Positions 18,560 to 34,844 of a stretch of 64,000 nt of DNA are shown in pieces (within the stretch, counting starts at the first letter, position 1; each line of letters begins with the position of its first letter). Both the position numbers and the translations under genes were made by a program. The notes beneath the pieces are model-generated. The model was not told the DNA's origin and did not search any database. It saw nothing but the letters and a program-made list of their open reading frames with translations. Source of the stretch: Zopfochytrium polystomum (Eukaryota > Chytridiomycota > Chytridiomycetes > Chytridiales > Chytridiaceae); the NCBI GenBank assembly GCA_025765615.1, contig JAIVFJ010000111.1:1-64000 (forward strand). Reading direction: 5' to 3'.

Positions 18560-21530
18560 AACTTGGATTGGTTATCATTTCCCAATTAAGTCGCATTCGA
18601 CCCTCAAAAACAACTTACCATACTTGTTTTTTTCCCACAGCTGACAGTTCTGAATGGACCTGTCAGGCTTATGCTGTTGTTAAACCGCTCTCTAAAGAGC
18701 TCCGTGCTTTTGTGAGTGGTCAATCTGAGTATAAACGCGTTCACAGTCATGTAATTTGTGTCCGCTCTATTACTCCACCTTTACCTCACATCACACCAAC
18801 AGTTGCTCGTTCACTGCGAATGCAACAGCTGGCCCGCCCTTCTCCGTTTAAGGTTCACTTAGCGCCTGCTCCGCCTCCGAAGGAGCCTGCCAACGCCATC
18901 ATTTCCTTCAAACACAAGGCAATTATGTGGGAGACCACTACTGCCACGTGGAGAAGACTGCTGGTTTAAGACCCCCTTGCTGTACTACTTGTGTAGTTCT
19001 GAGTCTATGCAGGCTGAAGCAGTACCAAGCGACATAATTGATCTTGTTGTCGCAGAAAAGACTGTTCTTGACCCAAAATGCAGCCATTCGGTGAAAGTAT
19101 GTCTACGCCAACCACTCCATTTCAAAGAATCAACTGTACATGCTGTACCTGTTGGCTCATTAATGGATAACCAGATACATTTCCCTGGATCTATATTTAC
19201 AGCTGCTGACCTTCATAATGAAGATGGTAGTCCAAAGGTTTTTAAGATCCCATTATTGAATCTGCGCAATAGGGCAGTTTCTTTGAAAAAAGGTACCTGT
19301 GTTGCCCACCTTACTGATGTACCACCAGACCCAGAGTCTTACATCATTGACGTGCCTGGCACACTCCATGAGGAACCTGAGCAGCTTTTGACAATGGTAA
19401 ATATTGCCTACTGTCATAACCCAACAGACACGGAATCCTTCCTTTCTGCTCTTGATGATGTAGATCACATGGAAACATCCTTTTTTCCCCGTTTCCCTGA
19501 AGCTGGAAAAGGATATACCACGCAGGGCTCAACTGAGACTTTCCCTGATGCTATTGTACCGCCTTCTTATGATGAGATGGCTGAAATAGAACGCATTTTC
19601 TCTTCAGATGCAGAAGAAACACTTGCGAATGAAGACGACATTGAAGCTGTAGCCGCACCTGTAGCTGATATGCCTCGCCGCAATACGACGCAAGGAGATA
19701 AATTAGAATATCTCCCACCTGAGTCCCAGATGGCCGATGATGAAATCTGGGCCAAATTGAGGACAGAGCATATCACTAAAGCTTTTGGTGCAAGATGTTG
19801 TTGCTCGCCTGAAAGAACTGGTATATCGCTATATTAACATCTTCCGACCCAGGTAAAATTACTGGCAAGAAGTTCCCACCACCACACACTATCGAACTCC
19901 AAGAAGGTGCGCGGATTCCTGCAAGCAACCCTTACCCAGAGGGCCTTGGCAGAACAGAAGTGTTACGTGAACACATCCAAAAAATGAAGGAAGCTAACGT
20001 GATTGCGAAAGCAAATCTCCGTTTGCTGCTCCTGTTGTCTTAGCAAAGAAACCTGATGGCTACTTGGCGTTTCTGTGCGGACTTTCGTAAAGTGAACGAA
20101 ATCACGATCAAAGACCGTATCCCCTCCTGCGAATAGAGGAAGTCTTTGATGCAATAAGCAACAAATACGTGTTTAGTGCTATGGATTTACTTAGTGGATT
20201 CTGGCAAATTCCTGTTGCTGAGGAAGATCGTCCATAAGACTGCTTTTATCTCCTCGCAAGGACTTCATCGAGTTCAATGTAATGCCGTTTGGACTTTGCT
20301 AACAGCCCTCCGACCTTTCAGAGAGCAATGGATCACGTTCTTGCTGGAATTAAGTGGTTGTACTGTATGGTTTATGTTGATGATGTGGTAGTTTACTCAA
20401 ACTCCATCGATGAACATTTCATACATCTTGAGAGCGTTTTCTCCCGCTTCAGCGAATACAACCTTAAGCTGAAACCGTCCAAGTGTAATCTGTTTCACCT
20501 GGACCTTCCATTCCTTGGACACCGCATTTCCAAGGACGGGACTGCGCAAAGACCCCACAAAGACTGTTAGCCTGGATGAATACCCCGTGCCACGAACATT
20601 GAACCAGCTGCAACATTTTTTGGCTTTGCAAACCACTTCAAGCGATTTATTCAGAATTTCTCTGAGAAAGCCAAACCGCTGTACAACCTTCTTTCGGGAA
20701 AGAACCCTTTCCTTTGGGGACAATTTCAGGAAGAAGCTTTCAACAACCTACGACACGAGCTGAAACGCGATATCGTACTTGTGACACCCGGTCCCAACGA
20801 CAAGCTGCTTATTGAGTATGATGCCTCTGGTTACGCCCTTGGTGCTGCGCTCTATGTCGTTGACCCTGACGACCCACACAACCGTGAGAAAAGGAAACCT
20901 GTTGGATTTGCCTCGAGAGTTCTGAGCGATGCAGAAACTCGCTATTGGACTCACGACCGTGAAGGACTTGCCATTGTTTGGGCTGTCGACACGTTTGAAC
21001 GATACATCTTCAACCGCTCTGTGATTATTGAGACTGATCACGCTCCGCTCATCCAGTTGTTTAAGAAAGGACCTCTGACTGGTCGCTTTGCACAATGGGC
21101 TTATGCACTCTCTGACTACGACATTGAACTTGTTCATGTGTCAGGCAAACAGAATGTTGTTGCTGACTCTCTTTCACGTGTTCTTATTGGACCTGCTGCA
21201 ATGAAAGGAAAGCGCCTCGTTTTCACTAATGAAGCTGCTACACAGACAGAAATGTCTCCCACCAAACCTGCAGCCTCCCCTGATGAGACAACATCAGGCG
21301 GAGATGCAGCGAAAAAAGAGGTAGCTGATGCTACTGACGAAGATTTCGGGTATGAAATCAATAGACTGTACTCTGAGGATTCTGACTCTGAGAGCAACGT
21401 GTTGGAATCTGAAAATGCAAACCAACCACTACGTGAAGTATCTCTCTTTGACCCTGTGATCCGGAAAGATATACTTCGCCACCATCTCATACGACAGCAC
21501 GAGCCTGCTGTTGTAGAAGTGTACGAATGA
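18560..21530 (+). pseudogene. Ty3/gypsy-type pol (pre-RT, reverse transcriptase, RNase H), decayed
   Basis: 18568-19837 encodes a linker with 'VFKIPLLNLRNRAVSLKKGT', typical of the stretch before RT in gypsy-like polyproteins. RT follows in pieces through several frameshifts: 'FCADFRKVNEITIKDRIPS', 'MDLLSGFWQIPVAEED' (19.9-20.25 kb), then 'SPPTFQRAMDHVLAGIKWLY', the catalytic 'VYVDDVVVYS' and 'PFLGHRISKDG' (20.29-20.57 kb). RNase H at 20781-21180 has 'LIEYDASGYALGAALYV', 'THDREGLAIVWAV' and 'ETDHAPLIQLF', ending in the tail 'SGKQNVVADSLSR'. At least four shifts show it is dead. No integrase was found downstream and no LTR pair is recognisable. The same frame reads past its TGA (21528) into the next feature. 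Confidence 0.85.
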
Positions 21531-23346: not shown

Positions 23347-24044
23347 GTACCTCCTTTTTAACCTCACATCCACAGGTGTGACAATGCCAGACTCTTCTGT
23401 GGTAGCAACATACTGTGCCACCCGTTCTGCTGTGATGAGGTGATGACGTTGAGGTTCTGACAAATCTCCCCCAAACATTACATCATCAACATGTACAAGG
23501 CTGACTAATAGCCTCTGAACCTCAGGTGGACCGATCTCTCGCGTAAACATGCATCGATCATGATCCACCCAAGTGCTTCCATTGCTTCACTGAATATATC
23601 GTACCAGGTTCGGGCAGCCTGCTTGAGTAGATTGCCGGTTGCAGTCAACAGACAAGATTGTGGCTGCGAACTTCAAGACCCTCTGGGATCTCGAGATAGA
23701 TCTCGACATCCACCTTGCCATTCAAGAATGCCGTCAAGATATCAACAGAGACAAGGAACCATGATCAAGCCGTTGTGATTGCAAAGAAAATCTGTGTTGT
23801 TGTCTGCTGTAAGGAATCTTCAAAGAATCTTACACTCCTTACTCTCCTTATCACATTATCGCTGAGGTGAAGAACTTGATAAATCTGGCTGGTGTCACCC
23901 TCATAGCTGATCTGGACACTGCACCATGTGTGTGGCCTGAAGACACTCTTCCTGTCTTCTTTCTCGATATGGGCGTAGACCTCGAACCTTTATGCCCAGA
24001 GGTTCGCCAAATTGGGTTTCCTACCATATAGTACCTTGTAAGGA
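23347..24044 (-). pseudogene. Copia-type pol relic (integrase C-terminal part and RT)
   Basis: On the minus strand, from right to left, the pieces are an integrase tail ('PNLANLRAFG'-like, then 'YAHIEKEDRKSVF') and an RT segment ('DILTAFLNGKVDVEIYLEIP', 'SSRLPEPGTIYS') ending in the catalytic region 'LVHVDDVMFGGD'. After this about 20 residues remain before the polypurine tract and LTR, so RNase H is missing. Several stops and shifts make it non-functional. The chromodomain element at 24045-29259 splits this copy from the rest of the copia coding sequence at 29260-31633. Confidence 0.7.
23900..24044. repeat. 145-bp direct repeat flanking the chromodomain element (left copy)
   Basis: The 145 bp ending at the 5' LTR (CTCATAGCTG...TTGTAAGGA) recur, by eye without change, at 29260-29404 immediately after the 3' LTR. 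Ty3-type integrases normally leave 4-6 bp duplications. The repeat consists of copia integrase sequence. Confidence 0.9.
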
Positions 24045-24062
24045 TGTTATGAATCACCCTCT

Positions 24063-24127
24063 GGAAACCTCTGGAACCTTCCAGAACATTCCTTCATGGA
24101 ACCTTCTGGAACCTTCTGGAACCTTCT
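24063..24127 (+). promoter_or_regulatory. Heat-shock-element array in the LTR (13 contiguous modules)
   Basis: From 24063 the sequence divides into thirteen contiguous 5-bp units alternating nGAAn and nTTCn. Eleven are perfect; the imperfect units are CCTCT at 24068 and TTCAT at 24093. HSF trimers bind three or more inverted nGAAn units, so this is far beyond the minimum. The same array is at 28970-29034 in the 3' LTR. Heat inducibility is inferred, not shown. Confidence 0.8.
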
Positions 24128-24190
24128 TTGCTTTCCTGACTTGTCTTGTTGTCATTGGTATCATTGGTATCATTGCATTACTAATTGCTC

Positions 24191-24205
24191 TTTCTGGAAC
24201 TTTCT
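24191..24205 (+). promoter_or_regulatory. Second heat-shock element near the TATA box
   Basis: TTTCT-GGAAC-TTTCT is a perfect three-unit nTTCn-nGAAn-nTTCn element, about 32 bp upstream of the TATA box. Its 3' LTR copy is at 29098-29112. Confidence 0.65.
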
Positions 24206-24236
24206 TGGAGTCTTGACAAGGAACACTCTCAAAAGG

Positions 24237-24243
24237 TATAAAA
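24237..24243 (+). promoter_or_regulatory. LTR TATA box
   Basis: TATAAAA within GGTATAAAAGGGGG. It places transcript initiation at about 24266-24272, just where the 11-nt self-priming complement begins. The 3' LTR copy is at 29144-29150. Confidence 0.75.
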
Positions 24244-24271
24244 GGGGGATGGGGGACCTGTCCCATCCCTC

Positions 24272-24282
24272 AAGTGAATTAT
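24272..24282 (+). promoter_or_regulatory. Predicted 5' RNA end, complementary to the primer binding site
   Basis: AAGTGAATTAT is the exact reverse complement of 24355-24365, and pairing stops at exactly 11 bases on both sides. It lies 29-35 bp after the TATA box, where the transcript should begin. Confidence 0.65.
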
Positions 24283-24354
24283 TGTTTCCAATACAATCAT
24301 CACTCCTCTCAGTTCCTTGTCTGCCTTGTCCTGTCCTGCCCTGTTCCTGACATC

Positions 24355-24365
24355 ATAATTCACTT
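24355..24365 (+). promoter_or_regulatory. Self-priming-type primer binding site
   Basis: ATAATTCACTT begins 2 nt after the 5' LTR. It has no evident match to a tRNA 3' end but is exactly complementary to 24272-24282. In Tf1/sushi-group chromoviruses the first 11 nt of the RNA fold back, are cleaved and prime reverse transcription. The length and placement here fit that scheme. Confidence 0.7.
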
Positions 24366-24392: not shown

Positions 24393-25316
24393 ATGTCTGA
24401 CCCAAACAACACCTTCCCTGATGCAACTGCCTTCCAAGCCTTGATGGACCAATTACAAGCCCTCTCAAGACAGACACACCAACTTCAAGAACAAGTCCTT
24501 CACCAGCAGCACCAGCTTCAACAACAACTTCACCAACAAGAACATCAAGCTCTTCCCCTGCCTCAAGCCAACCAAGCAAGAGAGCCCAAGGTTCCCAGCC
24601 CTGACAAGTTCACTGGGCTGGCCAAAGACCTTAGGAACTTCATGGCCACTGTGGAGAATGTCATCCTTCTCCAACCTTCAAGATTTCCCAGTGAGCAAGT
24701 CAAGGTTCTTTTCACAAGCACCCTCCTGTCTGGTCAAGCTCAATCATGGTACAGATCTCTCCCAAGCACACCCACCACCCTGCAAGAGCTCTGGGAGGGG
24801 CTGGAAGCTACCTTTGGTGACCCCTACGCATCTTGGACAGCAAGATCCAAGCTCAAGCATATCAAGCAAGGAAAGCAATCTTGTGTGGCCTACACCAACC
24901 AATTCAAGCAACTAGCCAGAGACTCTGGATACAATGATGCAGCTCTGATGGAGCTGTACCATGATGGTCTCCATGAGTCTATCCAAGACATGCTCTCCCA
25001 GTCTCTGCACATCCCTGAGACCTTGGAAGAGTACATTCTCCTTGCCATCAAGATTGACAACAGACTCTACTCCAAGAGGCTGAAGCAAAGACAAGTAGGA
25101 ACTACATCAAGACCTACCCCAGTTCCTCAAGCTCTTACAGTTCCTGAACCCATGCAAGTGGATGCAGTTGAGACACTTCCTAAGGGTCCTCTGAGCCAAG
25201 AGGAGAAAACAAGGAGGGCCCAGCAGGGACTGTGTTTTTACTGTGGCTCCAAGGAGCATGCTGTCAAGGACTGCCCAAGGAAGAAGCACCCAAACTCCCA
25301 GGTCCAGGCTCACTGA
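24393..25316 (+). CDS. gag: Gag of the chromodomain retrotransposon
   Basis: The frame encodes 307 residues from ATG 24393, 41 bp after the LTR. The N-terminus is Gln-rich and coiled-coil-like (residues 15-55, 'LQEQVLHQQHQL'). A retrotransposon-gag core follows (about 75-210, with 'FTGLAKDLRNF' and 'YTNQFKQLARDSGY') and one CCHC knuckle near residue 281 ('CFYCGSKEHAVKDC'). It should form the particle and package RNA. The last 85 bp overlap the pol frame, which lies one base back, so Pol is probably made by -1 frameshifting. No classical slippery heptamer stands out. The reading frame is undamaged. Confidence 0.9.
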   Translation: MSDPNNTFPDATAFQALMDQLQALSRQTHQLQEQVLHQQHQLQQQLHQQEHQALPLPQANQAREPKVPSPDKFTGLAKDLRNFMATVENVILLQPSRFPSEQVKVLFTSTLLSGQAQSWYRSLPSTPTTLQELWEGLEATFGDPYASWTARSKLKHIKQGKQSCVAYTNQFKQLARDSGYNDAALMELYHDGLHESIQDMLSQSLHIPETLEEYILLAIKIDNRLYSKRLKQRQVGTTSRPTPVPQALTVPEPMQVDAVETLPKGPLSQEEKTRRAQQGLCFYCGSKEHAVKDCPRKKHPNSQVQAH

Positions 25317-28300
25317 GGGGCAATTCCCTGGACCCTCCTCCAAGCTGCCCCTGTTTCATCACCACCACCAGCACCACAAACACCTCAGATTCCAAGCCCC
25401 ACCAACTCACCATGGATGTCAAGATTCAACTCTCACCCAAGTCAACCATCACAACCAAGGCCCTTATAGACTCTGGATCATCCTGCAACATCATTGATGC
25501 CACCCTTGCCAAGTCTTGTGCCATTCCTACGATCAAGAAATCCACACCCCTCAAGGTCCACTTTGCCAATCATGCTCTGTTCAAGGAAATCAGCCATGAA
25601 ACCAAGCTAAACCTCCACATCCAAGACTTTCCACCATCCATGGTCAATCTGGAAGTATTGGACCTTGGCTCACCCACATTCTCTGTCATCCTGGGATTAC
25701 CATGGCTGCAAGCCCAGAACCCTGCCATTGATTGGGTCACTGGTCAAGTCCAACCTCCACCAATTGGAACAGTCACCCAAAACTCAAGTCAAGCCCCCAA
25801 GTCTCATGCTCTCAAGCCCTTGATTCAAGATTCACAGCCAGCCAAGACTCCAGTTCCACAGTTCACAGTTCACAGTCAAGATTCAAGTAGAGCTCATAGA
25901 GCTCACAGTCATGGCCATGACTCTTGTTCACAGAACCCACAGTCAAAGATTCAAGTACCACAGTTCACAGTCCACATTCAAGATTCAAGTTCCACAGCTC
26001 ACAGTCTTTGCCAAGAACAGAACTCTCAGTCAAAGATTCAAGAATCACAGTTCCCAGTCAAGAATTCAAGCCCCACTGCTGAGGAGCACGACAACCTGGA
26101 CCCATCAGACCTTTTGCTGGCACCCAAGCTACCAAAAGAATATCTCCCTTATGCTGATGTGTTTTCCAAGACCAAGGCAGACCTGCTACCAGCTCAGAGG
26201 CCTTATGACTGTGAAATCCCACTCAAGGATGAAACTTGCAGCCCACCTTTCAAGCCACTGTACCACCTCTCTCCACCAGAAGCCAAGGCCCTCCAAGAAT
26301 ACATTGAAGAAATGCTGAACAAGGGATTCATCCAACCTTCCAAGTCACCAGCTGGAGCTCCCATCTTTTTTGTCAAGAAGAAGGATGGGGGACTGAGACC
26401 CTGTGTGGACTACAGAGATCTCAATGAGATGACAGTCAAGAACCGCTATCCACTGCCTCTCATCTCTGAATTACTGGACAAACTGAGCCATGCAAGGATA
26501 TTTTCCAAGATTGACCTCAGAGGTGCCTACAATTTGGTCAGAATTAAGCCCCAGGATCAATGGAAGACTGCCTTCAGATGCAAATACGGTCACTTTGAGT
26601 ACTTGGTTATGCCCTTTGGACTTACCAATGCTCCAGCTATTTTCCAAGGCATGATGAATGACATCTTCAGGGATATTCTGGACCTTTTTGTCATTGTCTA
26701 CCTGGATGATATCCTGGTATTTTCATCTGACACTGCAAGCCATATGGGACATGTCAAGACTGTCTTGGAGAGACTCAGACAGCATCACCTCTATGCAAAG
26801 CTGGAGAAGTGTGAATTCCACAAGACCTCCATTGAGTTTTTGGGGTTCATTGTGTCTGACAAAGGGATCTCCATGGCACCAGACAAGATCCAAACTATTC
26901 TTGAATGGAAGGCTCCAAATTCCATCAAGGATGTTCAAAGCTTCCTTGGATTTTGCAACTTCTACAGAACCTTCATTGCCAACTATTCTGCCATAGCCAA
27001 GCCTCTCACTGATCTCACCAAGAAGACCACCAAGTTTGAATGGACCCCAGCAGCAGAGCAAGCCTGGCTAGCTCTTAAGACAGCAACCACAAGTGCACCA
27101 CTCCTTAAGCATGTGGATCCCTTGCTTCCCTTCACCTTGGAAACTGATGCCTCAGACTATGCCCTTGGCGCTGTTCTGTCCCAGCCAAGCTCTCAGGAAC
27201 CCTCTGCTCCTCTGCATCCAGTGGCATATTACTCCAGGAAGCTGAACAGTGCTGAGTGTAACTACACAGTCCATGACAAGGAGTTGCTTGCAATTGTGGA
27301 AGCATTCAAATTCTGGAGACACTACTTGGCTGGTTCTAAAGGCATCTCTGTCTATTCTGATCACAAGAACCTCACCTTCTTCAGGGCAAGGAGGTTGCTC
27401 AAGCAGAGGCATGCCAGGTGGGCTGAACTGCTCTCTGAGTATGATTTTAAGCTGTGCTATTCTCCTGGCCACCTTAACACTGTGGCTGATGCCCTGTCAA
27501 GAAGAACAGACCTTGCACCTGAAGGGGGAGATGGTTTCACCCCACCATCCAAGACACACCTTTCATTGCTTCCTGACAGTGTGTGGGCCCATGCTATTTC
27601 CAAGGACCCCAAGCCTCACAAGATTCAAATCAGCCAAGAAGAGGAAAAACTTGAGATACTCAAGACAAGGCATGATGCAGCAACAGCTGGACACCCAGGA
27701 GAGCACAAGACATATGAGCTTGTTTCCAGAGACTTCTACTGGCCAGGCATGAGGAAGTACATCAAGAACTATGTCAGCAGCTGTGAAACCTGTCAAAGAA
27801 ACAAATCCAGCAGACACAAGCCCTATGGACTTCTGGAGCCCCTCCCAATTGCCATCAGCCCTTGGTCATCAATATCCATGGACTTCATTGTGAAACTGCC
27901 CCCATCCCATGGATTTGACTCTATCCTTGTTGTCATCTGCAGAAGGACAAAGTTGGCCCATTTCATCCCCTGCACTGAGAATATAGATGCACAAGGAACA
28001 GCAGACCTGTTTTTGCAGCACATATTCAGGCTCCATGGGCTGCCTCAGTCAATCGTCAGTGACAGAGGACCACAGTTCAGATCTCAATTTTGGAAAGCAC
28101 TCACAGCAGCCCTTGGAATCAAGTCTCAACTGTCAACTGCTTATCACCCTCAGACTGATGGACAAACAGAAAGAACAAACCAGACTCTGGAGCAGTATTT
28201 GAGGTGCTATGTCAGCTATCAACAGGATGATTGGCCCACCCTCCTTCCACTGGCAGAATTTGCTCTCAACAATTCTCTCCACTCAAGCACCCAGCTATCT

Positions 28301-28951
28301 CCTTTCTTTGCAACCTATGGCTTCAATCCAAGAGGAGATCTTCTGGGACAAGAGACCCTATCCAATGTCCAAGCTCCTGCTGCGGCTTCACACTTACATA
28401 AGCTCAAGATCATCAGCACCTTCCTGGACTCCACCCTGAAGCAAGCCCAAGAAGATGCCTCAAGATTTGCCAACACTCACAGAATGGACCATGACCTTGC
28501 TGTGGGTCAGCAAGTTTGGCTTCTGAGGAAGAACTTGCAGACCAAAAGACCAAGTCCCAAGCTAGACAACCTCAAGTTGGGTCCTTTCAAGATCTTGGAG
28601 CAAATCAATCCAGTCACCTTCAAGCTGGATCTCCCTGCATCCATGAAGATCCACCCAGTTTTCCATGTCAGCCTTTTAGAGAAGTTTGTGGCCAATTCCA
28701 TTCCAGGCAGAGTTGTTCCTCCTCCTCCTCCAGTTGAGGTAGAAGGTGAAGAGGAATTTGAGGTTGAACAAATCTTGGATGCCAAGTGGTTTGGAAGGAC
28801 ACTCAAGTTCCTTGTTAAGTGGAAAGGTTACTCAGATGCTGACAACACCTGGGAGCCTGAGTCAAACCTCACTCACTGCCAAGACCTTCTGCTCGAGTTC
28901 AAGACCAGGTACCCCACCAAGTTGCAGAAGAGGCCTAAAAGGGGGAGATGA
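25232..28951 (+). CDS. pol: Pol of the chromodomain retrotransposon (PR-RT-RH-IN-chromodomain)
   Basis: One open frame of about 1239 codons, in the -1 frame to gag. It has no ATG until the segment MDVKIQLSPK (about 25412), so it is likely expressed as Gag-Pol. In order: protease with 'LIDSGSSC' (about 25470); RT with 'PFGLTNAPAIFQ' and catalytic 'YLDDILVF' (26700); RNase H 'ETDASDYALGAVLS' (27140); integrase zinc finger (H-x-H...C-x2-C, 27690-27800) and core with 'MDFIVKLP', 'VSDRGPQF' and 'QTDGQTERTNQ' (27870-28190); and a C-terminal chromodomain 'FLVKWKGYSDADNTWEPE' (about 28805-28865). Chromodomains on integrase guide insertion to marked chromatin. The frame ends at the LTR boundary, and all catalytic motifs I checked are present. 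Confidence 0.95.
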   Translation: MFLLWLQGACCQGLPKEEAPKLPGPGSLRGNSLDPPPSCPCFITTTSTTNTSDSKPHQLTMDVKIQLSPKSTITTKALIDSGSSCNIIDATLAKSCAIPTIKKSTPLKVHFANHALFKEISHETKLNLHIQDFPPSMVNLEVLDLGSPTFSVILGLPWLQAQNPAIDWVTGQVQPPPIGTVTQNSSQAPKSHALKPLIQDSQPAKTPVPQFTVHSQDSSRAHRAHSHGHDSCSQNPQSKIQVPQFTVHIQDSSSTAHSLCQEQNSQSKIQESQFPVKNSSPTAEEHDNLDPSDLLLAPKLPKEYLPYADVFSKTKADLLPAQRPYDCEIPLKDETCSPPFKPLYHLSPPEAKALQEYIEEMLNKGFIQPSKSPAGAPIFFVKKKDGGLRPCVDYRDLNEMTVKNRYPLPLISELLDKLSHARIFSKIDLRGAYNLVRIKPQDQWKTAFRCKYGHFEYLVMPFGLTNAPAIFQGMMNDIFRDILDLFVIVYLDDILVFSSDTASHMGHVKTVLERLRQHHLYAKLEKCEFHKTSIEFLGFIVSDKGISMAPDKIQTILEWKAPNSIKDVQSFLGFCNFYRTFIANYSAIAKPLTDLTKKTTKFEWTPAAEQAWLALKTATTSAPLLKHVDPLLPFTLETDASDYALGAVLSQPSSQEPSAPLHPVAYYSRKLNSAECNYTVHDKELLAIVEAFKFWRHYLAGSKGISVYSDHKNLTFFRARRLLKQRHARWAELLSEYDFKLCYSPGHLNTVADALSRRTDLAPEGGDGFTPPSKTHLSLLPDSVWAHAISKDPKPHKIQISQEEEKLEILKTRHDAATAGHPGEHKTYELVSRDFYWPGMRKYIKNYVSSCETCQRNKSSRHKPYGLLEPLPIAISPWSSISMDFIVKLPPSHGFDSILVVICRRTKLAHFIPCTENIDAQGTADLFLQHIFRLHGLPQSIVSDRGPQFRSQFWKALTAALGIKSQLSTAYHPQTDGQTERTNQTLEQYLRCYVSYQQDDWPTLLPLAEFALNNSLHSSTQLSPFFATYGFNPRGDLLGQETLSNVQAPAAASHLHKLKIISTFLDSTLKQAQEDASRFANTHRMDHDLAVGQQVWLLRKNLQTKRPSPKLDNLKLGPFKILEQINPVTFKLDLPASMKIHPVFHVSLLEKFVANSIPGRVVPPPPPVEVEGEEEFEVEQILDAKWFGRTLKFLVKWKGYSDADNTWEPESNLTHCQDLLLEFKTRYPTKLQKRPKRGR
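28937..28951 (+). promoter_or_regulatory. Polypurine tract
   Basis: AAAAGGGGGAGATGA directly abuts the 3' LTR at 28952. It overlaps the last codons of pol and is the usual plus-strand primer site. Confidence 0.8.
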
Positions 28952-29259
28952 TGTTATGAATCACCCTCTGGAAACCTCTGGAACCTTCCAGAACATTCCT
29001 TCATGGAACCTTCTGGAACCTTCTGGAACCTTCTTTGCTTTCCTGACTTGTCTTGTTGTCATTGGTATCATTGGTATCATTGCATTACTAATTGCTCTTT
29101 CTGGAACTTTCTTGGAGTCTTGACAAGGAACACTCTCAAAAGGTATAAAAGGGGGATGGGGGACCTGTCCCATCCCTCAAGTGAATTATTGTTTCCAATA
29201 CAATCATCACTCCTCTCAGTTCCTTGTCTGCCTTGTCCTGTCCTGCCCTGTTCCTGACA
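28952..29259 (+). repeat. 3' LTR of the chromodomain element
   Basis: This 308-bp copy reads the same as the 5' LTR throughout, including both heat-shock clusters and the TATA box. From here the LTR promoter would drive transcription outward into the copia relic and toward the GH28 genes. Confidence 0.95.
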
Positions 29260-29404
29260 CTCATAGCTGATCTGGACACTGCACCATGTGTGTGGCCTGA
29301 AGACACTCTTCCTGTCTTCTTTCTCGATATGGGCGTAGACCTCGAACCTTTATGCCCAGAGGTTCGCCAAATTGGGTTTCCTACCATATAGTACCTTGTA
29401 AGGA
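29260..29404. repeat. 145-bp direct repeat flanking the chromodomain element (right copy)
   Basis: Same sequence as 23900-24044. The copia integrase reading continues through this copy without a break into 29405 and beyond, so this side keeps the original copia context. Confidence 0.9.
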
Positions 29405-31633
29405 GTCCTGCTGTCTGCTCGCGGAATCTGGTTGTGCAGTAAAGCTACCGTCTGCATGGCCTCTCCCCACCATTGGATTGGTAAATTTGCACTGAGCACC
29501 AGGGATTGTGTTTGGTCTTTCAATGTCCTGACAGTGCGTTCTGCATGACGGTTCAAATCTGGATTTCTTGGCACCGTCTGCTTGAGTCAGATGCCCAATG
29601 CGGTCAATTGCTGCAGAAATTCATTCAAGATAAATTCTCCTCCCCCATCTGAACGAATTGTCAAGACTTTCTTGTTTGACTCCCTTTCCATTTTGGTGAT
29701 CGAAAGGAGAACTTACGCGGCTGCATCACTTTTTAGACTTATTGGGATGGCTGCCAATGCCGATCCAGGTTTGATGCTGACGACCAGTGCATATTTGTCG
29801 TCAATGCTTGTCGGGCGGTGGGAGCAGGCCAGCCAGATTGACGTGTAAAATCATTTTTCCATCAGGGACAACCCTGTTTGTCTCCGAATGTGGTTGTCAT
29901 GTCGATTTAGATTGTGCGCAGATACGACATTCCGTCTCTCCTTCTGTGTCAATCTGTGGCACACCAGTGACACCCTTCCTCATCTGGACAGAAATCTGGG
30001 AAGGGGCACCTGGTGTCCAAGCCGCCTGTGTAGCACCGTGGAAGAAACTGTTGCAAGTGCCACTGACTCCCCCAACAAAGTAATTGGGTAAACATACAGC
30101 AGTGTCTCTGCACCATGGGAAAACGATCCTCGTACTCCCATTCTGTCCAAATATCACTACTACTGCGCTTTCATTTGTTAACTGCTGTTCTGAAAGATGG
30201 TTATAGTGGAAGGTCGGGATGTGTAAAGCAATCGTCTTAACAAGCCGTTTCCTGTGTGCCTGTCGTCCTGGGAGCGGCTCTGCCCAGGATCATATCTGTC
30301 GGCAAGAGAGACACTGGGCTGATTTGCGCTCATTGGAAAATATTCCTTTGGGAAGCATGCCCGCTCATGCACATAATGGCACGTGGCGCCGGAGTCCAGT
30401 ATCATTGTATAATCCTGTGCATGCTCTCGTTGCTCTTGGGACATCAACACCAAGTGTGCTGCACTGTTTCCAAATTTGTCCAAAATTTGTCTGTTTCCTG
30501 ACAGCTGTCCCTCCCCTTATGTTTACTGCTGCTGCCTCCAAAACGCCCATTTCTCTCCCATCGTCCTCGATTGCTATTGTGGGGGTTCCGCCGTGCCAAT
30601 CGACATTCCGCAGATTTATGGCCCTGCTTCCTGCAGTTGAAGCAGTTGCCAGTGAAGCGTGAGGATGTCGCCATCAATGCCGAGCTGGAGGACAATGACG
30701 TCGGCATAATAGTTTTCCCTAGATCAGCAGCCCCCACATACACTGGAGACTCTTGGGCCGCCGCTTCCAACATTTGCCACTTCACAAATTCAACTGTGAG
30801 TGGTGCAGTGACAAGATTGCGATTTATTGTCATGGTGTCGCGAAAACTGCGCCATACTGGGCCGTCGATCGGGACTGAATTTAGGTAGAATCCCACTTCA
30901 AACCTCATGCCTGCAGCTTCCAGCTGATAAAACACCAGGGAAAGCCTTTGGATGTGGGAATGCATGTTTGTTCCTGGCTTGTAAATCGTGGTAAAAAGTC
31001 GTCATTGGATCTCATATGCTGTTGCTGCCTGAACTTTGTCGTAAGTGCCATTCAGGGCTTTCCACATCTCATATGCCATTGTAGCCAATCTGCATGCCAC
31101 AAACGGTGTGAGTGAATCTTGTCCAAGATATATGATGCTGCCTGGCTGTCCAATTTTCGTTTGTCATCTGTCATTGCCTTGCCTCGATCCATTGTGACAG
31201 AGTCTTTGAGACCCTTTGAGGCAAGAAGAAAAAGCATCCTTGTTTTCCACTGTTGGAAGTTTGCAACACCAAAGACAGGAAAATTCTTGAATTCATCGGA
31301 AGACGTGGAGATGTTAACAATCAGTCCTGATTTTACTGGGGAAGATACCCTTGACATGTCTGTTGGTTGTGGAGTTGCTGTTGGTGGAGCAGAGGACAAT
31401 TGAGGAGATGATTGAGGTCGAGGGGGGATGGGAGGAGGTTCTTGTCGTCGAGGAGGTACTTCTGGTGTAGGGGATTGGGATTGTGGGGATCTTGTGTACG
31501 ATGTGGTACTTGAGAACGGAGACGACAGTCTTGATGGCCTTGGGGTAGCCGAGGCTGGTCGTGGACGATGTAGTCTTGCGAAGTTAAGGGAAGTCAAGGC
31601 CTTCTTGTATGTCAAAGAATTTGTCGTCGTCAC
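29260..31633 (-). pseudogene. Copia-type gag-pol relic (gag, protease, integrase)
   Basis: On the minus strand gag opens at 31633 (Pro/Ser-rich start, then 'NFPVFGVANFQQWKTRMLFL', the usual copia Gag core). It continues at 30965-30480 with 'NTMTINRNLV'-like helices and a zinc knuckle 'CFNCRKQGHKSAEC'. The protease has 'ILDSGATCHYVHERACF' (about 30400). The integrase end is at 29350-29574 ('DLNRHAERTVRTLKDQ', 'IPRADSRTPYKVLYGRKPNL'). Several frameshifts separate these parts. The coding sequence continues at 24044-23347 beyond the inserted chromodomain element. Its 5' LTR and primer site are at 31641-31935. Confidence 0.8.
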
Positions 31634-32012: not shown

Positions 32013-32560
32013 AAAGGCATCGGTATTGTGTCCGAGCGGCAGCTCGTTCTGCAGCACGTCCCCGTCCGTGTTGTCGTACGTAATCTGGTCGAACGTGGTG
32101 CCGGACCCTCTGATGCTGAAGCAGTGGATCGGAGAGTTGTCATCGTGATGCCCTTGATCAGCGAGTTGCCCATCGTCAGTATCTTGAAGAACTTGGGCTC
32201 TAACGTTGTGGGAGTAAGAGTCGTAGGAGAGCGAACGAGTGGGAGGGAGGACACGTCTGCACGCATCTCCCCAGATGTCCAGAGGTTAAGCACAAACAAT
32301 AGTAAACAACAAAACTCAACTATTGTCCACAACATTCGCGCCCGTCGTGTCCCAGTACATCTGCCCGTTCCCGTGGAACGTCCCCGCCATCCCGTCAAAC
32401 GTGACCCCCGCCCCGCCCAGCTTGAACAGGAAATCCGTCTTCGTCAATGTCGCGCTCTTGCCCACGTCACCGTGCCCGTCACGGTTACCGTCGTCCCGGC
32501 CTTGAGCCCGGACATGTCGATCTTGGTCTCGGCGGACACCGTGGACGGTGGCGGTGATGG
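32013..32560 (-). pseudogene. GH28 polygalacturonase gene, truncated at both ends
   Basis: Two exons match the neighbouring gene at 33519-34844. Exon 1, to 32321, carries 'KIDMSGLKAGTTVTVTGTV'-type and 'TFHGNGQMYWDTTGANVVDN' segments. Exon 2, from 32199, carries 'PKFFKILTMGNSLIKGITM' and 'GHNTDAF'. The intron sits at the same place and phase (donor GTTGAG, acceptor TTAG). Small shifts occur in exon 2. Similarity stops at about 32013, right after NTDAF, so the catalytic DD, GHG and RIK motifs are gone, and the signal peptide is also missing. The break lies beside the copia LTR, which suggests the insertion or a linked deletion destroyed it. Confidence 0.75.
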
Positions 32561-33518
32561 ATAGGAGGTGGAGGAGTGGTGGTGGTGCAGGATTTGGAGG
32601 AGCGGGAAGGCGCGAGATGGGCAGAGGTCGGGATGGCGGAGGTGCGCATGGCTGGACTATTTGGTTCCGGTCAGAATCTATTGCGGGAGGAGGGGAAAGA
32701 AGGTGTGTTGGAATGAGGGATCCGAAGATGGGATGGTTGAGCAGAGTGGGAGGCGGGGACAGGGCGTATATGTTATGCAAGCAGCAGCGCTGGAAGGATC
32801 CGCTCAGTTCTAGACGTTCTCTTTCTTTCTCTTTCCTGTATTTATTAATATATAGGCGTAAACGAACAACATTGGCCAAAGTGTCATTAATCAGAGCGCA
32901 TGTAAATAAAATAATAATTCTCACATCAAAGAAGCGCATTGCTCGTGTCGCCATAAGCGTGGGCCATCGTTTTTTTCTTTTTTCGTCTCTTTCCTGGGAA
33001 GGGTTAGGGTTACGCACTGAGCAGACTGTGAAAGTGAGCGCTGCTTTGGATATTCGGGTTCGTTTTATATTCTTCTGTATCTTTGACGGGGAAGAGGGGG
33101 GGGGGGGAGACAGCTCCATGGCAAGACAAATGGAGAAGGAAGAAAGGCGTAGCGGGGGCAAAGAAGAAAAAAAAGAATATAGCGATTTGGTTTGACCCAC
33201 ACCCGATAGGAACTGTATGGGCCCCACCGGAGAGTGTATGTAAAAGAAGCAGAATCGGGTCCGGGGGGTGGAATCGGTTTGGAGGGGGGTCCGTGAGAGG
33301 CTTCGCAAAAACATGGTCATAAAGGAAACAAGCTTCTGGGAGGAGAAAAAAGGGTTGTTTTTTTTTGGGTCTTATCGAGTTTGTTGTATCTTTCTGATTT
33401 CAATGAGGGTTCAGCTACTCTAATTGTAAGGAGGGATTTGGGGAGGGGTGCGTGAGCCCTTCCGCCACGTGCCGGGCCGTGCCGGGCCGGGCCGGGCCGT
33501 CAAAGGCCAAAGGAGCGC

Positions 33519-34844
33519 TCAAGAGCATCCGGCGAGCGACGTGCTGACGCCGGTGCAGCTGGGGTTCTTTGGCGTAATGTTGATCTGGCTGAACGAGAAA
33601 CCTGAGCACGCGGCGCACAGAATGTACGTGCTGTGCGTGGCGCCGCTGGCCATGGTGCCGTGCACGTTGGTCAGCGTGACGCCCGAGATCGGGATGCCGG
33701 CCGTCGGGGTGCCGGTAGGCCCGCCGTTCAGGTAGTCCTGCTCGATCACGATGCCGTACTTGCTAATGTTCGACAACGTGATATCCGTGTACGCCACGTT
33801 CTTGACCGACCCGCCAGTCGCGCCCGAGATGGTCTTGATCCTGACGCCGTTCTCCGAGTTCGAAATCGTGCACCCGGACACGGTCACGCCGTCGACGGTC
33901 TTGCCGCTGTCGATCGACCCGATCGAGATGCCGTGCCCGCCCGCGCAGTTGTTCGACAGGAACTTGATGGTGCTGCCGCTGTTGATCGCCAGGCAGTCGT
34001 CCTGATTGTGCACGTTCGAGTTCTGGATCGTGATCCCCGTCGCGCTCACGTCGAACGCGTCCGTGTTGTGCCCGAGCTTCTTGCCGCCTGCTCAGTGTGT
34101 CGCCGTCCGCGTTGTCCACCGTAACGTGGTCGAACGTCGTGTCCGACCCGCCGATGCTGAAGCAGTGGATCGGTGAGTTCTTCATCGTGATGCCCTTGAT
34201 CGTCGACTTGCCCGTCGTCAGGACCTTGAAGAACTTGGGCTCTGGTGTGTGGGTATTTTTTTCACATCAAGTCGTTGGTGAGCAGGGGATAGGTTGGAGG
34301 TAATAGTGGGGTGAAGTGTCCGCCATTTCGGGATCAAAAGTCCACAGGGCCACAAACAAAATAAAATAAAAATAAAATAAAATAAAATAAAAATAAAATA
34401 AAATAAAAATAAAATAAAGAGTCAAGTCACTCAACTGTTGTCAACGCCGTTCGAACCATTCGTGTCCCAGTACAGCTGGCCGTTGCCGTGGAAAGTCGCG
34501 CCGGTGCCGTCAAAGGTGATGCCCGAGCCGCCGAGCGTGAACAAAAAGTCCGACTTTGTGTACTTGGTGCCCTTTGCCCACGTCACTGTGCCCGTCACGG
34601 TGACGGTCGTTCCAGCCTTGAGGCCAGACATGTCGATCTTGGTATCGGCGGGCACCGTGAACGGGCCCTTGATGAGGATGTTGGTTGACGTCGCCACGCA
34701 GTTGGCCACCTGCGACGCACTGGTGATCGTGCATTGCGTCGACGACGCTGGCGCCGCGAGCGGCGCGGCGGTGGTGGTGGTCGCGGGGGCGAGGAGGGCC
34801 AGGAGCAGGGTCCCGAGGGGGACGAGGGTGGAAAGCGCGTGCAT
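33519..34844 (-). CDS. Secreted GH28 polygalacturonase (pectinase)
   Basis: It hydrolyses alpha-1,4 bonds of polygalacturonate in plant cell walls and is predicted to be secreted. Exon 1 is 34844-34436, exon 2 34241-33519. The signal peptide is residues 1-26 ('MHALSTLVPLGTLLLALLAP'). Splicing creates the family-typical 'DNKPKFF'. Family motifs follow in order: NTD (about 196), QDDC (about 214), GGHG (about 236) and RIK (about 270), so all catalytic residues are present. One extra base near 34090 ('CTGAGCAGG') breaks the frame just before NTD. Without it the gene is 376 residues, the usual GH28 size. The intron is rich in (TTTTA)n on the sense strand. A truncated tandem paralogue lies 1 kb downstream. 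A pectinase fits a saprobe or parasite on plant material. Confidence 0.85.
34350..34418. repeat. (AAAAT)n short tandem repeat in the GH28 intron
   Basis: About 65 bp of AAAAT/AAATA units in the single intron of the GH28 gene. The equivalent intron of the truncated paralogue lacks it. Confidence 0.9.

Follow-up and report, generated by a model that had tools for sequence, protein, structure and literature searches.

A chromodomain Ty3/gypsy retrotransposon with a probable HSF-driven LTR promoter in the chytrid Zopfochytrium polystomum

Introduction

Does the LTR of a chytrid retrotransposon carry a promoter that would be read by the heat-shock factor (HSF) of its host? The question is raised by a stretch of 64,000 nucleotides, here called the window, from Zopfochytrium polystomum, a chytrid of the Chytridiales (assembly GCA_025765615.1, contig JAIVFJ010000111.1, positions 1 to 64,000). 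An initial annotation, based on the letters of the window, had described a young chromodomain element with identical LTRs, intact reading frames and a long series of alternating nGAAn and nTTCn units, i.e. of potential heat-shock elements (HSEs), upstream of a TATA box. We analyzed the element, the LTRs of its family in the 80.16 Mb assembly (about 80 Mb), and the HSF genes and chaperone promoters of the host. A host-type protein of the window matched Z. polystomum at 90% identity over 88%. In PMC9926174 an assembly of Cladochytrium polystomum of 81.2 Mb with 12.3% transposable elements is the largest Chytridiomycota genome; we took this to be the same organism as Z. polystomum because the reference list of that paper cites the Zopfochytrium genus paper beside it.

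Results

Anatomy of the element

The window carries one complete chromodomain Ty3-type element, bounded by positions 24045-24352 and 28952-29259. The following features were assigned:

23900..24044, forward strand: left copy of a duplicated 145-bp flank, which stands where a 5-bp target duplication would be expected
24045..24352, forward strand: 5' LTR, 308 bp, TG...CA, 0 differences from the 3' LTR
24393..25316, forward strand: gag ORF, 307 aa, with a Retrotrans_gag match
25232..28951, forward strand: pol frame, 1239 aa in the ORF list, in a frame different from that of gag and overlapping it
28952..29259, forward strand: 3' LTR, 308 bp, with the HSE array at 28970-29034 and the proximal HSE at 29098-29112
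29260..29404, forward strand: right copy of the 145-bp flank duplication, a direct repeat of the left copy

Pfam matches in pol followed the order protease (74-158), reverse transcriptase (RT, 381-541), RNase H (629-737), integrase (803-973), SH3 and chromodomain. The SH3 match after the integrase was Tf2-1-like, and the integrase C-terminus ended in the chromodomain (PF00385 at 1176-1226, E 3.5e-16). The domain order and the C-terminal chromodomain are those of a Ty3/gypsy chromovirus; the pol domains do not have the order of Ty1/copia elements such as ONSEN. Paired TG...CA LTRs, together with 5-bp target duplications in 9 of 13 other LTR pairs of the family, identify an LTR retrotransposon. 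In a protein search with the RT region the nearest matches by identity, among the best 120 of 7977, were two metagenome proteins (P0010 and P0013; 75% and 74% over 88%), and proteins with similar domain sets were among these 120. Viral contigs searched by single protein gave 10 pattern stretches and those searched by alignment gave 18 stretches, none of them a relative.

The identity of the two LTRs and the integrity of both frames were thus borne out, with 0 differences over 308 bp and open frames for gag and pol. The element is young-looking, structurally intact and has its chromodomain. A 5-bp target duplication was looked for at both ends of the window element and was not found; instead, 145 bp of flanking sequence were duplicated. 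This points to recombination or mis-assembly as the source: exactly such flanks would result from a crossover between two insertions separated by 145 bp, and equally from a mis-assembly. Therefore the LTR identity of the window copy need not date one insertion. Among the 13 other pairs checked for target duplication, a set not the same as the 13 pairs scored for mismatches below, 5 bp were duplicated in 9 and none in 4, two of which abutted other element sequence.

Elsewhere in the window, open frames at 18977-21530 and 30444-31633 resembled, by eye, pieces of other retroelements (RNase H-like, CCHC gag-like). Diverged direct repeats 2.0-2.1 kb apart at 32058-34664 lay over frames that by eye looked pectin-degrading (polygalacturonase-type).

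The HSE array in the LTR

The 5' LTR contains these elements upstream of the coding region:

24063..24092, forward strand: HSE block 1, GGAAA cctct GGAAC CTTCC AGAAC ATTCC, 5 of 6 units exact, the second degenerate (nCTCn)
24093..24097, forward strand: spacer unit TTCAT, 5 bp, at which the GAA/TTC alternation is broken
24098..24127, forward strand: HSE block 2, GGAAC CTTCT three times, six exact units
24191..24205, forward strand: proximal HSE, TTTCT GGAAC TTTCT, 46 bp upstream of the TATA box

The array at 24063-24127 consists of 13 contiguous 5-bp units, of which 11 are exact (GAA or TTC), in the order GAA, ctc, GAA, TTC, GAA, TTC, [TTCAT], GAA, TTC, GAA, TTC, GAA, TTC. The 13 modules of the initial annotation are therefore present, but their alternation breaks once at TTCAT, which leaves two six-unit blocks; the second, three-unit element that it had reported lies at 24191-24205. 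The longest perfect runs were 4 units in block 1, 6 in block 2 and 3 in the proximal HSE, so that each contains the at least three contiguous inverted GAA units in 5-bp phase that make an HSE. A three-unit run also occurred outside the element at 31278-31292 of the window, and therefore three units alone are unremarkable.

Longer runs are a different case. When the whole window was simulated 60 times with a second-order Markov model, 30 simulations contained no run of at least three units, and the longest run was three in 29 and four in 1. Genome-wide, the exact six-unit pattern was found at 2188 places versus 0 for the reversed control, where the 2188 are overlapping windows, several per long array, and the two strands give identical places, as the pattern reads alike on both. 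The simulations and the count of 0 for the reversed pattern led us to reject chance or simple composition as the origin of the array.

Growth by repetition is another alternative. Tandem Repeats Finder reported a 10-bp repeat with 3.6 copies at 24091-24127. The array could be a minisatellite, with CTGGAACCTT as its 10-bp unit, that expanded in U3 by slippage and unequal exchange, looks like an HSE because of its composition and lacks a regulatory function. The proximal three-unit HSE stands apart from this repeat, and the copies of the element in the genome bear on the matter further.

Copy number in the genome

In the assembly of 80.16 Mb the exact LTR start occurred 2109 times and the exact junction of polypurine tract and 3' LTR 601 times; LTR counts may be inflated by allelic contigs because some host genes occurred in near-identical pairs by score. 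Assembly-wide, 888 LTRs fitted a shorter-array pattern, 100 rows of which were inspected for array variety and excluded from the statistics. All 45 pol copies scored, the best 45 of 1400 candidates and hence a description of the youngest copies, showed about 100% identity and no internal stops. The LTRs of 13 other elements, picked by spacing, differed by 0-2 mismatches in 8 pairs, 4 in 1 and 7-9 in 4, and some of the pairs with 7-9 mismatches may be recombinants.

A four-unit pattern with spacers excluding the usual ones of the family occurred at 3 places in 80 Mb. One of them, on C23, considered as an array outside the family, proved to be a family LTR (95%); of the others, that on C45 lay inside a long open frame and that on C189 was without an LTR match. 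From the one spacer class tested we infer that most of the genome's perfect arrays are those of the element family.

Several further observations were made on the contigs. Matches with equal or near-equal scores on different contigs (HSF on C17/C403, Hsp70 on C174/C709, larger Hsp70-like proteins on C156/C16/C6/C88) are either paralogues or the products of both haplotypes having been assembled. LTR starts or 3' LTR junctions formed ladders of constant step at C6:359820-372517 (3171 bp), C6:235583-239058 (1725 bp) and C18:210470-218815 (4160 bp), and these resemble multi-LTR concatemers of the family in tandem. Inverted partial LTR copies, 91-100% alike, were situated immediately beside the LTRs L007 (C170) and L022 (C63).

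Retention and variation of the array

Array retention was assessed in contigs C1-C5, from which all 81 listed LTR starts were taken. They had been selected by an exact 14-base start, which leaves out badly decayed copies; with the window copy the sample comprised 82 LTRs. A perfect run of at least 4 units was kept in 78 of the 81, and 80 of the 81 had phased U3 runs with 7 or more exact units, the proximal HSE included. In this survey the array was thus neither absent nor scrambled in the other copies, as the proposal of a heat-responsive LTR would have it, and as would not be anticipated of a repeat without function. One LTR, L154, diverged from the family after unit 4 and had 2 exact units in U3. 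The commonest number of exact units per U3 was 11 (31/82 LTRs) and the maximum 27 (2/82); for the 11 of 82 LTRs without TATAAA the first 250 bases were used as U3.

Of the 81 LTRs, 47 had the common array length, 28 deviated from it by a multiple of 5 and 6 were out of phase; length was measured to an end marker that may itself be mutated. The copies varied by 10- and 45-bp steps. These steps count for an origin by simple repetition, and slippage of a 10-bp repeat would likewise produce a change of length that is in phase.

Loss of a unit was common. A change of CTTCT to CTTGT at LTR column 62 breaks unit 9. Among close copies it was present in 19 of 27, and among sampled LTRs in 55 of the 67 in which this column is filled. 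The commonest sublineage is this unit-9-lost form; therefore not every unit is needed. The window copy, unlike most sampled LTRs, has unit 9 intact and is on the strong side. A weakened array in the commonest sublineage would be expected if the array were a relic that hitch-hiked while the family amplified for other reasons, e.g. poor silencing. Moreover, the best-scoring copies, among the matches listed, were near-identical, so that retention alone says little. On the other hand, the commonest weakened arrays still retain two perfect four-unit runs and the proximal HSE, and sublineages with longer arrays coexist with the weakened one. On balance we regard a relic as unlikely.

Variation per column was determined in 70 near-complete LTRs, 12 of the 82 having been dropped as incomplete, and amounted to 1.0% in the unit cores, 2.8% in the spacers and 1.8% in the rest of the LTR. 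A variant shared by at least 2 copies was present in 1/33 core, 5/22 spacer and 31/228 remaining columns, and in 0/15 of the proximal HSE. Rank tests gave p about 0.03, while permutation of the means gave p 0.11-0.13. The invariance of the proximal HSE is not exceptional, as the LTR has 209 other windows of 15 bp and 22 of them were equally invariant. In six more divergent LTRs the unit cores differed from the window copy at column 62 only, once each, versus changes at 13/121 spacer positions and 50/1339 positions of the rest; two of the six (L180 and L181) had been found via array patterns, which biases core conservation. The data suggest a sequence constraint on the array cores that is statistically weak. 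This weakness is in keeping with a repeat devoid of function, whereas the cores kept in the divergent copies, with the bias in two of them, and the proximal HSE outside the repeat are not. Together with the chaperone promoters described below, these points lead us to consider a minisatellite origin without regulatory role quite improbable.

Promoter and self-priming

Downstream of the array the following elements were located:

24237..24242, forward strand: TATA box, TATAAA
24272..24282, forward strand: AAGTGAATTAT, predicted 5' end of the mRNA, at the start of R; perfect 11-nt complement of the primer-binding site (PBS)
24355..24365, forward strand: putative PBS ATAATTCACTT of Tf1-type self-priming, just inside the 5' LTR

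The TATA box claimed at 24237 was confirmed as TATAAA. In self-priming of the Tf1 type the 5' end of the mRNA is complementary to the PBS. Here AAGTGAATTAT begins 35 nt downstream of TATA, a plausible distance, and is the exact complement of 24355-24365. This 11-nt match, an estimate of the transcript start in its own right, suggests that transcription starts 35 nt downstream of the TATA box, near 24272, which would place the array about 145-210 bp and the proximal HSE about 67-81 bp upstream of the start. The 11 nt were kept exactly in 66 of the 82 LTRs, and the spacing from TATA to AAGTGAATTAT was 35 nt in 58 of the 63 LTRs that had both exact strings among the 82 examined. Because of the self-priming match we judge tRNA priming of the element less likely. 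Tf1 has gag-pol in a single frame; the chytrid element has two overlapping frames and differs from the Tf1 type in this respect.

HSF genes and chaperone promoters of the host

HSF-domain exons gave 14 matches in the assembly, 3 of them with an internal stop, and the recognition helix SFVRQLNMYGFHK was intact in 5 of 5 HSF loci fetched. By eye the host HSF-domain genes were of at least two sequence types.

Upstream regions of 37 chaperone genes were examined, one of them 124 bases long: the 2 of Hsp90 first, which had no strong HSE, then 15 of Hsp70 and 20 of small HSP chosen from 58 and 33 exon matches, respectively. A region was scored positive if a four-unit HSE in it matched 11 or more of the 12 core letters. 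By this measure 18 of 37 regions were positive; among 740 shuffles from a first-order Markov model there were 8 positives, and among 36 tiles of the window there were 0. The counts include paralogues and alleles, which are not independent of one another. By class, an HSE was found in 4 of 15 Hsp70 and 14 of 20 small HSP regions; a strong HSE was not found upstream of 2/2 Hsp90, 11/15 Hsp70 and 6/20 small HSP genes.

The 18 of 37 positive regions share the GAAnnTTC architecture of the LTR. Among the 14 small HSP regions scored positive, 11 had the form GAAnn[GA]TCnnGAAnnTTC, and 12 had an HSE starting 34-93 bp before a TATA word; in the LTR the proximal HSE starts 46 bp before TATA. LTR block 1 follows the order of the small HSP HSEs and likewise has a degenerate second unit, nCTCn in its case. 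That a part of the chaperone promoters has this architecture, including its degenerate unit, argues against a mere repeat in the LTR. HSEs with GTC or ATC as second unit (GAAnn[GA]TCnnGAAnnTTC) were seen in small HSP and Hsp70 regions L084, L086-L094, L102, L069, L070 and L075 and are possibly a lineage-specific HSE.

The same comparison bears on the stimulus. Fungal HSF-type factors also serve oxidative stress. The array might be bound by a factor with an HSF fold in response to a life stage or another stress (zoospore germination, oxidative stress, a Skn7-like factor) and not to heat as such. The several host HSF-domain genes of at least two types would accommodate this, and the MAGGY element is activated by heat, copper and oxidative stress according to the title of Ikeda 2001. 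Yet the same architecture lies upstream of 14/20 small HSP and 4/15 Hsp70 matches, and we find a stimulus other than heat rather doubtful.

Discussion

Taken together, the data favor the view that the family is a recently expanded, intact chromodomain Ty3/gypsy element with an HSE-cluster LTR promoter that is driven by HSF under heat or proteotoxic stress, and we hold this view with good confidence. HSF-driven transcription is the best reading of the array, judged from its sequence, and heat stress may be the driver of the element's expression and spread. In such a scheme heat or other protein-damaging stress would cause HSF trimers of the host to bind the two-block array and the proximal HSE cooperatively. 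HSF would activate transcription from the TATA box, with a start about 35 nt downstream, near 24272. The first 11 nt of the transcript would then prime reverse transcription at the PBS adjoining the 5' LTR, and the chromodomain integrase, with targeting presumably aided by its chromodomain, would insert new copies, again array-bearing. Heat induction of this kind would go along with an element that may be mobile at present.

The closest precedents come from plants. According to PMC5059998, ONSEN (ATCOPIA78) has four nGAAn motifs in its LTR, is bound by HSFA2 and is induced by heat, TERESTRA of A. lyrata has a heat-responsive cluster of six nGAAn, and the heat response of Brassicaceae Ty1/copia elements follows the class of element. 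The chytrid element resembles them in its LTR-borne nGAAn cluster, but they are Ty1/copia elements of plants while it is a Ty3/gypsy element with a chromodomain. Compared with four units in ONSEN and six in TERESTRA, it has 11 exact array units plus 3 proximal ones, up to 27 per U3, in thousands of LTRs, with a predicted heat response. If it works, it works like ONSEN in another superfamily.

In fungi, PMC12810828 describes two putative LTR HSEs in TCN3 and one in TCN12 of Cryptococcus, both mobile at 37 C, and states that activation of transposons by heat shock via host machinery has been demonstrated in plants and animals and is undescribed in fungi. TCN3 and TCN12 are thus LTR retrotransposons of fungi whose LTRs, too, contain putative HSEs. 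They have two or one of these and a mobility that was measured; the chytrid element has two six-unit blocks plus a third element, and its mobility is predicted.

MAGGY of Magnaporthe is a chromovirus. It is, like the chytrid element, a fungal Ty3-type element, and is activated by heat shock according to the title of Ikeda 2001; we found no description of an HSE array for it, and four HSE/HSF terms were absent from the main text of PMC3978060.

The self-priming chromoviruses of the Tf1/sushi type share with the chytrid element the 11-nt match of predicted 5' end and PBS and the Tf2-1-like SH3 and chromodomain after the integrase, but gag and pol of Tf1 are not split into overlapping frames. We know of no Tf1 promoter with such an HSE array.

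Titles in the open-licence literature yielded none on the chytrid element or on HSE arrays in chytrid transposons. Hence the earlier statement that no fungal chromovirus with so long an array had been described is uncontradicted there, although putative HSEs in fungal LTR elements have been published (PMC12810828). Already published, then, are the putative HSEs in fungal LTRs (TCN3/TCN12) and the four-to-six-unit clusters in plant retrotransposons. New are the array length, its length polymorphism, the copy number and the occurrence in a chytrid.

The element family is a strong, testable fungal case of a putatively heat-driven transposon in an early-diverging lineage. Its arrays are longer than the four-unit cluster of ONSEN and the six-unit cluster of TERESTRA as given in PMC5059998, and dose-response tests could draw on its natural variation, which spans 7 to 27 exact units in a U3. 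The copy number is very high, within what PMC9926174 gives as the largest Chytridiomycota assembly. If heat-driven, the family would tie temperature to the growth of a chytrid genome and could flood that genome with HSF sites. More tentatively, and as a possibility that we ourselves think somewhat unlikely, the retrotransposon would contain most of the host's perfect HSF arrays and heat would drive its bursts via HSF; its thousands of LTR arrays may titrate HSF or put nearby genes under heat control, and element and heat response would have co-evolved in the largest chytrid genome.
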